Source of the DNA: Chitinophagaceae bacterium
Lineage (GTDB): Bacteria; Bacteroidota; Bacteroidia; Chitinophagales; Chitinophagaceae
Reading direction: 5' to 3'
Length of the DNA stretch: 17,038 nt
Assembly: GCA_003136915.1 (NCBI GenBank)
Contig: PLEB01000378.1
Location: forward strand, 1,490 to 18,527
In this document: piece after piece, positions 3,881 to 8,286 of the stretch
Layout of the letters: each line of letters begins with the position of its first letter
Position numbering within the stretch: the first letter of the stretch is position 1
Notes under the pieces: model-generated
Database searches by the model: none
Told to the model about the DNA's origin: nothing
What the model saw: the letters and a program-made list of their open reading frames with translations, nothing else
Program-made: the position numbers and the translations under genes

Positions 3881-4102
3881 ATGAGCAGGTTCAAAGAATT
3901 TATTGAATGGCAAGCCTTCGGCGTTTGTACTGCGATTGGTGATCGTTTGGGAATTGCTGCATCCAGGATCCGCACCTGGTTTATTTATGTTTCTTTTCTC
4001 ACCATGGGCTCACCCCTGATCGTTTATTTTGTTCTGGCATTCTGGCTGAATATAAAAAGGTATATCAGGTTTTCTAAGCGAAATCCCTTGTACAATAGTT
4101 GA
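3881..4102 (+). CDS. Small PspC-domain membrane protein
   Basis: This 73-residue protein consists of little more than one PspC domain. FGVCTAIGDRLGI (about residues 13-25) corresponds to the GVC.GLA...GI signature. The arginine-containing stretch ASRIRTWFIYVSFLTMGSP leads into a hydrophobic segment (about 33-55) that ends in WLNIKRY. PspC domains are inner-membrane modules, in enterobacteria linked to the phage-shock envelope-stress response. No other psp gene is nearby, so a stress role is only inferred. An upstream ATG at 3824 would add a cysteine- and phenylalanine-rich tail of 19 residues unlike the family. The ATG at 3881 gives a typical PspC start and matches the candidate promoter. The TGA stop (4100-4102) falls within the outermost heptamer-like unit of repeat element E1, and kdsA converges from the other side. 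Confidence 0.75.
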   Translation: MSRFKEFIEWQAFGVCTAIGDRLGIAASRIRTWFIYVSFLTMGSPLIVYFVLAFWLNIKRYIRFSKRNPLYNS

Positions 4103-4178
4103 TGGTAGATGGTTGATGGTTGATGGAGTTCAGGTGCGGATTCGCAATTAAAGTCCATCAACCATCAACCATCAACCA
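4097..4178. repeat. E1: inverted repeat with heptamer arms, between convergent genes
   Basis: The left arm (4097-4127) reads AGTTGAT, GGTAGAT, GGTTGAT, GGTTGAT, GGA. The right arm (4154-4177), read on the minus strand, is three GGTTGAT units and GGA. Positions 4108-4127 and 4154-4173 pair perfectly over 20 bp. The pairing extends to 25 bp with one mismatch (4103-4127 with 4154-4178). The 26-base loop contains AGGTGC (4132-4137) and AATTAAAG (4146-4153), both also found at the same spacing in E2. The element lies where pspC-like (+) and kdsA (-) converge and contains both stop codons. It could fold in RNA from either strand and so limit read-through, but it has no GC-rich stem or U-tract, so it is not a standard intrinsic terminator. 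Confidence 0.9.
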
Positions 4179-4996
4179 CTCACGGCCTTCCTCAACTTCA
4201 ACAACCTCCCCAGCAAGTCCTCCAAAAGATCCAGCTTCAACATATTCGCACCATCGCTTTTTGCAATTGCGGGATTAGGATGCGTTTCAATGAAAAGACC
4301 GTCTGCACCCGCAGCAATGGCGGCTTTTGCAATCGTGCCTATAAGTTGTGGATTTCCGCCGGTGACGCCGGATGACTGGTTTGGCTGTTGCAGTGAGTGG
4401 GTGCAATCCATCACAACGGGATATCCAAGATCCTGCATCCATGGAATATTCCGGTAATCGACTACGAGGTCCTGGTATCCGAAACTGTTTCCCCGCTCAG
4501 TAAAAATAATTTTCCTGTTTCCTGCATTCAGTATTTTTTCTGCCGCGAATTTCATGGCCGGCCCGCTCAGGAATTGTCCCTTCTTCACATTGATCACTTT
4601 TCCCGTTTCCGCTGCGGCAACAAGAAGATCGGTTTGACGGCAAAGAAATGCGGGGATTTGTAACACATCAACGAAACCAGCAGCAGAAGCGGCTTCATCA
4701 TGTGCGTGAATATCTGAAGTGGTTGGAATTTTATATTTTAATCCTGTTTTTTTTACAAGGGCCAGGGCCTGTTCGTCTCCTATCCCTGAGAAAGATAAGG
4801 AACTTGTGCGGTTAGCTTTACGGTAGGAAGCTTTAAAAATATATGGAATACCCATCCTACTGCAGAGAGAAGAAACCCTGGAAGCTACCGTCTCCAGCAA
4901 TTCTTCGTTTTCCACCACACAGGGTCCGGCAATAAGGAAAAAGTTTTTTTCATCGTAGTGCTGACCTTTAAAAAGTTCTTTCAGAAAATCATGCAT
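4172..4996 (-). CDS. kdsA: 3-deoxy-D-manno-octulosonate 8-phosphate synthase, metal-dependent type
   Basis: KdsA (274 residues) condenses phosphoenolpyruvate with arabinose 5-phosphate to KDO-8-phosphate, the first committed step to the KDO of LPS, in the cytoplasm. The family motifs are present: IAGPCVVE (22-29), FKASYRKANRTS (54-65), GFVDVLQIPAFLCRQTDLL (107-125), MDCTHSLQQP (196-205) and FIETHPNP (235-242). Cys26 replaces the Asn of the metal-independent E. coli enzyme. Cys26, His200, Glu237 and Asp248 have exactly the spacing of the metal ligands Cys11, His185, Glu222 and Asp233 of the Aquifex aeolicus enzyme, so a divalent metal is predicted to be needed. The start is ATG at 4996. The final codons run into the arm of E1, whose heptamer supplies the TGA stop. 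No other KDO gene is in the window. Confidence 0.96.
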   Translation of the reverse strand: MHDFLKELFKGQHYDEKNFFLIAGPCVVENEELLETVASRVSSLCSRMGIPYIFKASYRKANRTSSLSFSGIGDEQALALVKKTGLKYKIPTTSDIHAHDEAASAAGFVDVLQIPAFLCRQTDLLVAAAETGKVINVKKGQFLSGPAMKFAAEKILNAGNRKIIFTERGNSFGYQDLVVDYRNIPWMQDLGYPVVMDCTHSLQQPNQSSGVTGGNPQLIGTIAKAAIAAGADGLFIETHPNPAIAKSDGANMLKLDLLEDLLGRLLKLRKAVSG

Positions 4997-5031
4997 GAAA
5001 AAAAATTTGAATAATCATTGCGCGAAAGTAG

Positions 5032-5064
5032 TTTGTAATTTTCTACGGGATTAAACTATTTTTG
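5032..5064 (+). promoter_or_regulatory. Promoter of the small lipoprotein gene
   Basis: TTTG at 5032-5035, a 21-base spacer, and TATTTTTG at 5057-5064 match the Bacteroidota -33/-7 consensus exactly. Transcription should begin near 5071, which leaves a leader of about 33 bases before the ATG at 5104. This rules against the in-frame ATG at 5062, which lies inside the -7 box. The promoter sits in the divergent kdsA-lipoprotein gap. Confidence 0.65.
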
Positions 5065-5103
5065 CATCATGAATTTGAGGGTATGTACATTAAAAAAAAT
5101 CAT

Positions 5104-5520
5104 ATGAAAATCGCATTGTTATCGCTTTTTACTCTACTTACGTTTTCTGCATGCAGGAAAACGGTTGTAAACCAGACAGTAAACCAGGCTTTTTCGGCAA
5201 TTTATAGTATTGATACGACAAAGTGGGTCCAGGGCCAAAATCCGGATGCAACTGTTTATTTCTATACTACACTCAGCGTTCCGGAGCTGGATGCGGTCAT
5301 TAATCAAAATGGGGGAGTGGAAGTGTATATTTCATTTGATAACGGCACCACTTATGAAACCCTGCCTGAAGTGGTCGACGGGGTGGCATATGGCTCCCTT
5401 CATACTACCGGTGCAGTAACTATTGATCTGCGTGGCGCTGACGGGGGAACCCTTCATTCTGCCATCAGCACGACCATCCTTGCAAAAGTTGTCTTGATTG
5501 ACGCCCAGCCCCTGGATTAA
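5104..5520 (+). CDS. Small lipoprotein of unknown function
   Basis: This 138-residue protein begins with a lipoprotein signal: a basic start, a hydrophobic core at 4-14, and the lipobox FSAC with the lipidated Cys at residue 17. The mature part (about 120 residues) appears all-beta, with alternating patterns such as ATVYFYTTLSV and VEVYISF, and the aromatic-rich YETLPEVVDGVAYGSL. I do not recognise the family. Such small lipoproteins are frequent in Chitinophagaceae, and nothing here indicates a substrate or partner. Earlier in-frame ATGs at 5062 and 5083 were set aside: the first lies in the -7 box, and only the start at 5104 puts the signal peptide at the N-terminus. The gene converges on the mutase gene, and the two stop codons share the palindrome TTAA at 5517-5520. 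Confidence 0.75.
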   Translation: MKIALLSLFTLLTFSACRKTVVNQTVNQAFSAIYSIDTTKWVQGQNPDATVYFYTTLSVPELDAVINQNGGVEVYISFDNGTTYETLPEVVDGVAYGSLHTTGAVTIDLRGADGGTLHSAISTTILAKVVLIDAQPLD

Positions 5521-7716: not shown

Positions 7717-7745
7717 GTTGTGGTTGAAGACAACATTCCGCCAAA

Positions 7746-7776
7746 TTGGAAAACCTCATAAATTGGATTAAATTTG
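7746..7776 (+). promoter_or_regulatory. Promoter of the A-type Fe-S carrier gene
   Basis: TTG at 7746-7748, a 20-base spacer and TAAATTTG at 7769-7776 match the Bacteroidota consensus exactly. Transcription should begin near 7783, about 12 bases before the ATG at 7795. This excludes the in-frame TTG at 7774, which lies within the -7 box. Confidence 0.6.
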
Positions 7777-7794
7777 CAGTTGAATTTGGAATGT

Positions 7795-8139
7795 ATGGAA
7801 ACGACAATTGAATCTCCGCTGCACTTCACGCCCCAGGCAGTGGAGGAAATCAGGCGACTGATGAATGCGGAGGGATTTGATAAAAATGCTTTTCTGCGCA
7901 TCGGCGTAAAGGGTGGGGGATGCTCCGGCCTCTCTTATATTTTAGGGTTCGATAAGTTTCAGGAAAACGATGAAGAATTTGAATCTGAAGGTCTGCCTTT
8001 CATAATGAATCCGGCCCAGGGTATCTATTTGGCCGGGATGGAAATCGATTGGGACAATGGACTCAATGCCCGCGGTTTTACTTTCAAAAACCCGAATGCG
8101 TCGAAGACTTGCGGATGCGGGAGCTCTTTTGCAGTTTGA
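7795..8139 (+). CDS. A-type iron-sulfur cluster carrier (IscA/SufA/ErpA family)
   Basis: This 114-residue cytoplasmic protein has the full A-type signature. The three cluster-binding cysteines are Cys43 in GGGCSGLSY and Cys106 and Cys108 in KTCGCGSSF at the C-terminus. The DWDNGLNARGFTFKNPNA stretch precedes the last two. Such proteins take Fe-S clusters from the Isc or Suf scaffold and pass them to client enzymes. No suf or isc gene is in the window, so I give no symbol. Aconitase at 1481-3745 is a plausible client, but that is inference. The start is ATG at 7795. An out-of-frame ATG lies 4 bases upstream. Element E2 begins 17 bases after the stop. Confidence 0.93.
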   Translation: METTIESPLHFTPQAVEEIRRLMNAEGFDKNAFLRIGVKGGGCSGLSYILGFDKFQENDEEFESEGLPFIMNPAQGIYLAGMEIDWDNGLNARGFTFKNPNASKTCGCGSSFAV

Positions 8140-8155
8140 TTTTTTAAGAGATTAT

Positions 8156-8286
8156 TGGTTGACGGTTGACAGTTGACGGACGTTAGGTGCACCTTAGTAA
8201 TAAAGATTTATCATTCCGAAATGCTGGTAGTTGGCAATTTATAAAGTATGTTCCATACAAGTCCGTCAACCGTCAACTGTCAACCA
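8156..8286. repeat. E2: longer copy of the heptamer-arm inverted repeat
   Basis: The left arm (8157-8181) is GGTTGAC, GGTTGAC, AGTTGAC, GGAC. The right arm (8261-8285), read on the minus strand, is GGTTGAC, AGTTGAC, GGTTGAC, GGAC. The arms pair over 26 bp with two mismatches, which arise because the A-type and G-type heptamers are in different order. The 79-base inner region has AGGTGC at 8185-8190 and AATAAAG at 8199-8205, at the same spacing from GGA as in E1. It also has a small nested hairpin, GTATG-TTC-CATAC (8246-8258). Compared with E1, about 50 extra inner bases are present. The element lies downstream of the Fe-S carrier gene, about 100 bases before the DUF2911 gene. No flanking target-site duplication is seen. 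Confidence 0.88.

Follow-up and report, generated by a model that had tools for sequence, protein, structure and literature searches.

Repetitive extragenic palindromic (REP) sequences are described as palindromic, multi-copy and extragenic (PMC3733652). BrickBuilt, a miniature inverted-repeat transposable element (MITE) of Porphyromonas gingivalis, has a 23-nt tandem repeat, small inverted-repeat ends and 19 copies in one strain (PMC4596501), and TAACTGA heptamer repeats, which are direct apart from one inverted case, are found in their main genome for the most part immediately before start codons (PMC4679880). Inverted repeats in bacteria generally peak 50-80 bp behind stop codons (PMC13155455), and template switching is reported both to homogenise the arms and invert the spacers of short inverted repeats (PMC8604942) and to create, fix and maintain hairpins (PMC8794818). 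Here we analyze a family of palindromes with tandem RGTTGAY heptamer arms, first seen as two elements, E1 (4097-4178) and E2 (8156-8286), in a 17,038-nucleotide stretch of a draft Chitinophagaceae genome (contig PLEB01000378.1, assembly GCA_003136915.1), hereafter the window. A survey of titles and abstracts in the open-access PMC literature, with subscription journals and preprints outside its scope, returned no description of this family or of its site behaviour.

A transposase is a common explanation for palindromes dispersed in bacterial genomes. In the genomes rich in copies we did not find the usual one, and the letters of the element change at sites that are kept. The reading we prefer, with little more than even confidence, is that these are REP- or MITE-like gene-end hairpins that stay at their sites while slippage and template switching rewrite them, with a presumed role at the gene end.

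A dispersed family of heptamer-armed palindromes

The RGTTGAY family is a real, dispersed family in a small group of uncultured Chitinophagaceae. Its members consist of tandem RGTTGAY heptamers inverted around a 31-nt core with consensus GAYWTCAGGTGCGRATTCGCAMYTAAAGTCC, with a G or C before the core. A profile built from an ungapped 24-copy alignment was searched against 100 stretches (1,442,575 bases) of three related draft genomes, which together comprise about 11 Mb: G000, the window's own genome (3.06 Mb in 464 contigs, 80% complete, with the window in contig 67), G006 (86% complete) and G008 (99% complete). At E ≤ 1e-4 and with overlapping hits merged, 173 copies were found, 69 in G006, 65 in G008 and 39 in G000; as the stretches were selected for holding copies, this is the number within them and not a whole-genome copy number. 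Reversed stretches, used as a control, gave a single hit with E 0.16.

In 153 of the 173 copies the span from the second heptamer of one arm through that of the other is exactly 58 nt. E1 and E2 are thus neither the only two copies nor relatives of sequences that share the heptamers without the inner positions, and their common descent as copies of a dispersed, non-coding element, claimed in the preliminary description, is supported by the profile and its shared spacing. Element lengths step by one heptamer (72, 79 and 86 nt in 44, 42 and 41 copies, respectively; range 58-107 nt). The near-palindromic core departs from symmetry in a fixed way, which gives each copy an orientation; the median difference between the two strands is 11.8 bits, with less than 2 bits in 8 of 173 copies. 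Further long-core copies with RGTTGAY arms occur (e.g. L257:3417, L284:5518).

A covariance-model search of the kind proposed in the preliminary description was carried out with at most 150 candidates scored per genome and both strands counted, so that match numbers are not copy numbers. It gave matches in 8 of 24 same-genus genomes: 109 in G000, 150 each in G006 and G008 (the number scored), and few in G018 (10), G015 (5), G022 (4), G005 (3) and G020 (2). The family is thereby abundant in three of the 24. A two-arm pattern, for which overlapping registers are counted separately so that matches are not element counts, has 65+79 matches in G000, 117+129 in G006 and 94+120 in G008, and its reversed form has none in any of them. 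For the heptamer dimer RGTTGAYRGTTGAY, G000 has 126+130 occurrences, against 5+4 of its reverse. The two-arm pattern was present in 26 of 294 genomes of the family Chitinophagaceae, never more than 10 times outside G000 and G008, and in 25 of 395 genomes of the phylum, never more than 3 times outside G000; among the listed matches outside carrier genomes, the canonical core was absent by eye. In a collection of 84,980 species, from which the window's own records are possibly excluded, the exact core pattern was found in 11 stretches, seven from JAUZOD01 (Bacteroidota bacterium bin63; G008) and four from JANWIY01 (Chitinophagaceae bacterium CRAIB_MAG53; G006).

Phage records contained no match to E1 at E 0.01 and viral contigs no exact core match, and phage or viral carriage was set aside on these results. 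A plasmid collection gave weak matches to E1 (E 1e-3 and 3e-4) in Deinococcus NZ_OV024759.1 and NZ_CP031159.1, possibly just heptamer-like repeats. In addition, 33 solo heptamer arrays without a nearby inverted partner were seen, 11 of them within called open reading frames (ORFs) (L245:1-39, L264:12828, L317:6026 and others), and a CTTCGG / GAAGCGAAGGAGGG repeat adjoins some arrays (L259:560, L285:7602, the L299 gap).

Placement and persistence at gene 3' ends

Genes were called as simple longest ORFs, 3'-end distances outside -45 to 400 were dropped, and the 33 copies overlapping called ORFs by more than 20 nt were excluded from the placement count. The 140 copies with overlaps of at most 20 nt comprise 52 in convergent, 60 in tandem and 14 in divergent gaps and 14 at stretch ends. 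Among gaps of at least 60 nt without an element, 66 are convergent, 272 tandem and 162 divergent, giving a convergent excess of copies (odds ratio 4.6, p = 2e-11). When all gaps are taken unfiltered, 53/228 convergent, 78/769 tandem and 25/229 divergent gaps are occupied, so that the low divergent share depends on the exclusion of overlapping ORFs.

Mapping relative to gene ends, as the preliminary description had suggested, places the copies at gene 3' ends. Of 175 stop codons that face a copy, 149 are within it or no more than 30 nt away (39 inside, 59 at 0-10 nt, 51 at 11-30 nt, 18 at 31-100 nt and 8 at more than 100 nt). Because every standard heptamer contains TGA, 33 of the 39 stops inside a copy occupy position -5, -12 or -19, each of which belongs to a different frame; since 7 is moreover not divisible by 3, three heptamers in a row close all three frames to translation entering from outside, on either side. 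RGTTGAY-type arms close on average 2.36 frames outside-in and 0.18 inside-out. Both ORFs flanking E1 terminate on an arm TGA, the plus-strand ORF 3824-4102 on the left-arm TGA at 4100-4102 and the minus-strand ORF 4172-4996 on the right-arm TCA at 4172-4174; we take these ORFs to encode a PspC-domain protein and KdsA, respectively. With 39 of 175 facing stops inside a copy, the element partly writes the C-termini of neighbouring genes, which calls for caution in annotation.

Comparison of orthologous sites, likewise envisaged in the preliminary description, revealed that copies are kept at the same gaps while their cores are rewritten. Reciprocal best proteins have a median identity of 89.8% between G000 and G006 and 81% between G006 and G008; identity at 4-fold sites is 0.56 (chance 0.25) and 0.40 (chance 0.26), and silent-site distances are 0.67 and 1.22 substitutions per site, far diverged and not fully saturated. 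Of 87 orthologous gaps between G006 and G008, 10 hold a copy in both, 4 in G006 only, 3 in G008 only and 70 in neither. Because the stretches were selected for copies, the association test was redone on stretches holding another copy (both 5, discordant 4 and 3, neither 70; p = 2e-4); scoring two long-core gaps as occupied raises sharing to 12 in both (4, 1 and 70 in the other classes). For G000/G006 the counts are 9 in both, 1 and 0 discordant and 32 in neither (corrected 7, 1, 0 and 32), and for G000/G008, uncorrected, 2, 1, 1 and 21. In these few pairs, occupied gaps thus stay occupied at 0.7-1.2 substitutions per silent site.

Sequence within the kept sites behaves differently. Among 17 orthologous pairs of 58-nt copies, arm identity is 0.90 within a copy, 0.83 between orthologous copies and 0.78 between random copies of different genomes. 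Core identity of orthologous G006/G008 copies (0.68, n = 9) equals that of random inter-genome pairs (0.68, sd 0.09), and it is 0.77 for G000/G006 (n = 8). Inverted cores occur in 6 of the 17 pairs, including 4 of the 8 for G000/G006. Heptamer type, heptamer number and core orientation accordingly change in these few pairs, while the arms stay complementary, rare heptamers included. That the element is kept at the same gene end though its letters are rewritten suggests that place may matter more than sequence.

Individual loci illustrate this behaviour. Orthologs of kdsA were found in 22 of 24 genomes and the downstream gap, which holds E1 in the window, was read in 12: G000 and G006 have a GTTGAT-armed element, G008 has mixed GTATAT/GTTTAT/GTAGAT arms, and no palindrome was seen by eye in the other nine, G005 having a heptamer-like stretch that is a possible remnant. 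The gap behind iscA was read in nine genomes and holds E2 in G000, a GTGGAT-type element in G008, an unrelated palindrome in G015 whose arms are about 49 nt long, a short hairpin followed by TTTTTT in G020 and, by eye, no palindrome in G006, G016, G001, G018 and G005. The sequence after iscA in the window (8287-8389) differs from that in G006 and G008, which points to a rearrangement at or near E2.

Maintenance of the element and alternative explanations

The two arms of a copy vary together. Of 153 copies, 82 have T-A as the innermost Y-R pair, 60 have C-G and 11 another combination. Beyond the GAT and GAC types, rare heptamers occur (GTGGAT, GATGAC, GTTTAT, GTATAT, GTGCAT and others), and in 11 (inner position) and 21 (outer position) of the 153 copies a non-standard heptamer of one arm recurs unchanged at the matching place of the other; permutation gave means of 1.2 and 1.4, with maxima of 5 and 6 in 2000 trials. 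Hence arms were copied from each other, copies arrive whole, or pairing is selected. Such mirroring, like the 3'-end placement and the rewriting at kept sites, cannot be seen in a single window. In a 24-row alignment, 19 cells changed on both sides against 8.2 in shuffles (0/500 equal) and the covariation score was 0.139 against 0.092 (0/500); pairs changed on both sides, at 4 against 3.0 (162/500), did not exceed the shuffles. As an explanation, RNA-level selection was set aside: Y-R covariation is strong, yet there is no G-U preference and doubly changed pairs are not above shuffles.

In the reading we prefer, replication slippage would change the heptamer number, and template switching between arms would copy one arm onto the other and could invert the spacer. 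These two processes are proposed because arm homogenisation and spacer inversion are the signatures seen. Overwriting by other copies may contribute. Retention would most likely reflect a weakly selected role at the gene end, as placement and conservation of sites suggest; this might combine a translation stop in all frames with a 3' hairpin, active in both directions, that terminates or protects the transcript.

Several observations weigh against this reading. A selfish element merely avoiding promoters would also show 3'-end placement, the stretches were selected for copies with genes taken from a simple longest-ORF call, and in 33 of 173 copies the overlap with called ORFs exceeds 20 nt. 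The corrected G000/G008 test shows nothing (both 0, discordant 1 and 1, neither 21). Flipped G000/G006 cores, after turning, have identities of 0.77, 0.73, 0.63 and 0.70 against 0.87, 0.83, 0.93 and 0.67 for the unflipped ones, and since they are less alike and nearer to random pairs, replacement by another copy fits as well as inversion in place. Broken Y-R pairs lack a G-U preference (C.A 6 and 9, T.G 4 and 7), which lends no support to selection on an RNA stem. There is no T run on the side of the finishing gene, where the T fraction of the first 8 nt is 0.31 (n = 185) against a background of 0.30 (n = 488; p = 0.64), and T is more frequent in flanks that face a gene start (0.39, n = 129), contrary to what a terminator would show. 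Finally, operon-like tandem junctions are not avoided, the residual gap being shorter than 25 nt in 27 of 78 cases with a copy and 278 of 691 without (p = 0.39).

As a possible though rather unlikely alternative, the family may be a selfish MITE-like element that some transposase moves in trans; purifying selection elsewhere would then account for the 3'-end placement, and shared sites would be old insertions. The family shares with MITEs its terminal inverted repeats, small size, lack of coding content and multiple copies; it is mostly intergenic and patchy, being abundant in 3 of 24 same-genus genomes, and its shared core must at some time have been copied. Against this stand its retention in orthologous gaps of genomes about 1.2 substitutions per silent site apart and the scarcity of candidate larger units: only three pairs of solo arrays in plus-to-minus arrangement lie 160-4000 nt apart, and their distances (175, 278 and 473 nt) are too short for a transposase gene. 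No autonomous transposon with the same ends was found in the 100 stretches (1.44 of about 11 Mb), and comparison of occupied and empty sites gave no target-site duplication readable by eye, the flanks being too diverged. Of the label "MITE- or REP-like" in the preliminary description, the multi-copy, palindromic and non-coding character therefore stands; the implied transposed unit is only a possibility, with no target-site duplication readable, no Y1 or REP-associated tyrosine transposase (RAYT) found in the rich genomes and no autonomous partner seen in the stretches.

A broader possibility arises from other palindromes in the same stretches. An inverted repeat scoring at least 14 is present in 180 of 1052 gaps, against 2 in Markov-shuffled copies, and 67 of these 180 fall among the 898 gaps without a profile hit. 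By arm, 121 are RGTTGAY-like, 30 AATGTGNN, 10 AAAARTT, 2 ATTTGARA, 2 GTTATGR and 15 other. Median distances to the gene 3' end are 6, 1, 3 and 5 nt for the first four classes, which close 2.36, 2.12, 2.70 and 3.00 frames outside-in and 0.18, 0.70, 1.15 and 0.00 inside-out, respectively. The two GTTATGR cases differ (2.50 in both directions, median 39 nt), and the remaining palindromes close 0.90 and 0.43 frames at a median of 19.5 nt. The recurrence of outside-in frame closure in several unrelated repeat classes suggests a shared design. Period 7 or 8 is found in 124 of 159 arms of at least 18 nt, against 1 of 159 when shuffled.

The AATGTGNN class is a second palindrome family with 8-nt arms near gene 3' ends (L229:3602, L296:11525, L313:1907 and 27 others), and several of its cores share AAATGAAATACA by eye; its pattern matches, in which registers overlap as above, number 22 in G000, 14 in G006, 18 in G008 and 7 in G015, with none in the other 20 genomes and 0 in the control. 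AAAARTT is a third, with heptamer arms (L252:11931, L276:12021, L249:459), some of its cores beginning with GGTCCCT or GGAGCC. Other arm units in relatives are GTCGAWA, TCTGAACCAGGATTTG, TAACGCC, AAGCCTAA and AATTGTY (G015 L331:2360 and L356:1839; G016 L371:2109; G005 L374:21 and L330:893).

In the ten discordant orthologous pairs, AATGTGNN arms are present in one partner gap (L264), AAAARTT arms in another (L276) and long-core RGTTGAY arms in two (L257, L284); the G008 gap L296, counted twice among the ten, has weaker ATTTGAAA arms with a score of 12, below the threshold. A strong palindrome is thus present in 4 of 10 partner gaps against 13 of 181 (p = 0.007) with long-core RGTTGAY copies included, and in 2 of 8 against 13 of 181 (p = 0.12) with these removed. 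Swapping of sites between unrelated families is accordingly suggested by single cases and is not a proven rule. One might tentatively go further and propose heritable 'palindrome slots' at gene 3' ends, kept for long, whose occupant is rewritten and sometimes swapped among unrelated families (RGTTGAY, AATGTGNN, AAAARTT, ATTTGARA and others in sister genomes), all with tandem 7- or 8-nt inverted arms that present stop codons on the entry strand. This proposal, which depends on very few discordant gaps, we consider doubtful; if true, such slots would represent a kind of gene-end structure not described before, in which form and not sequence is selected.

It is improbable that the main job of the element is that of a bidirectional transcription terminator of a non-classical kind. 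Enrichment in convergent gaps and a hairpin stable on both strands (below) would suit such a role, as would the short hairpin and TTTTTT at the iscA end of G020 where G000 and G008 carry the element; this single orthologous replacement is, however, an anecdote, and the lack of a T run and the use of operon-like junctions argue the other way. A classical intrinsic terminator was rejected on the missing T run.

Mobilisation as REPs or paired REPs (REPINs) by a RAYT, a Y1 HUH transposase, is very unlikely. The many extragenic palindromic copies do conform to the definition of REPs, but PF01797 (Y1), matched in 15 of 24 same-genus genomes, had no match in G000, G006, G008, G018, G003, G005, G013, G016 and G022, and it is the missing match in the three rich genomes that disfavours this explanation; of the low-copy carriers, G015 and G020 have PF01797 and G018, G005 and G022 do not. 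Nor is there a conserved GTAG or CGTC end: the arm consensus is GTTGAY, CGTC is confined to the GTTGAC subtype, and the outward flank profile contains no fixed tetranucleotide.

Inverted DNA uptake sequences, known from Neisseria and Pasteurellaceae, are likewise inverted short motifs behind genes, but uptake motifs number hundreds to thousands of single copies genome-wide and 1.44 Mb contain, outside palindromes, 47 occurrences each of the 9-mers GGTTGATGG and GGTTGACGG (means of 5.8 after letter shuffling), an excess of dozens that the 33 solo arrays may partly explain, which leaves this idea with next to no credibility.

E1, E2 and their relation to described systems

In the window, the arm pairs of E1 and E2 rank first, second and fifth by length among inverted repeats (Table 1). 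E1 is a typical family member and E2 a long-core variant. The positions, heptamer arms and inner spacings given in the preliminary description are all present: in both elements AGGTGC starts 4 bases past GGA, and AATTAAAG (E1) or AATAAAG (E2) 8 bases past AGGTGC. The AAG noted before the right arms is there as AAGTCC, directly before the arm in each. The E2 core refines the roughly 50 extra inner bases of the preliminary description: at 86 nt it has a left part that fits the family with one base missing, and then 56 bases before TCC. The ORF ending at 8139, presumably iscA, has its stop codon separated by 17 nt from the G at 8157. RNA folding gave z = -9.9 and -11.7 for the two strands of E1 and -7.4 and -8.6 for those of E2, with 0 of 200 shuffles equal on any strand. 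No window match reached the gathering score among 4227 Rfam families.

Table 1. Parts of E1 and E2 and associated inverted repeats in the window
Feature	Position	Strand	Element	Description
I1	4103-4138/4143-4178		E1	inverted repeat, rank 1 by length
I2	8156-8181/8261-8286		E2	inverted repeat, rank 2 by length
I5	4098-4119/4155-4176		E1	inverted repeat, rank 5 by length
Left arm	4098-4125	+	E1	four heptamers, GTTGATG GTAGATG GTTGATG GTTGATG
Core	4126-4156	+	E1	canonical, 31 nt, GAGTTCAGGTGCGGATTCGCAATTAAAGTCC
Right arm	4157-4178	-	E1	three heptamers plus one base
Left arm	8158-8178	+	E2	three GTTGAC heptamers
Long core	8179-8264	+	E2	86 nt; family-like left part GA-4-AGGTGC-8-AATAAAG, 56 bases, then TCC
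Right arm	8265-8286	-	E2	three GTCAAC heptamers plus one base

The family offers a testable system for the creation and maintenance of hairpins by template switching, and for selection of gene-end form independent of sequence. Among described systems, REPs and REPINs with their RAYTs resemble it in being multi-copy, palindromic and extragenic; the RGTTGAY family differs in its variable-number tandem 7-mer arms, its total length of 58-107 nt, the lack of a GTAG/CGTC tag and the absence of a Y1 match in the rich genomes. Rho-independent terminators share a hairpin shortly behind the stop codon and the use of convergent gaps, but here there is no T run, the stem is much longer and a core is shared. 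With BrickBuilt, the family has in common the occurrence in Bacteroidota, the intergenic location and a tandem repeat within an inverted-repeat element, whereas in our case the inverted arms themselves are the tandem arrays (PMC4596501). The TAACTGA repeats are also intergenic heptamer arrays and are found in five Bacteroidetes as well, while the RGTTGAY arrays are inverted and lie behind stop codons (PMC4679880). Quasipalindrome template switching comes close in arm homogenisation and spacer inversion (PMC8604942, PMC8794818). It is, however, a mutational process and not a family of elements, and we propose it here as the probable rewriter of such elements.

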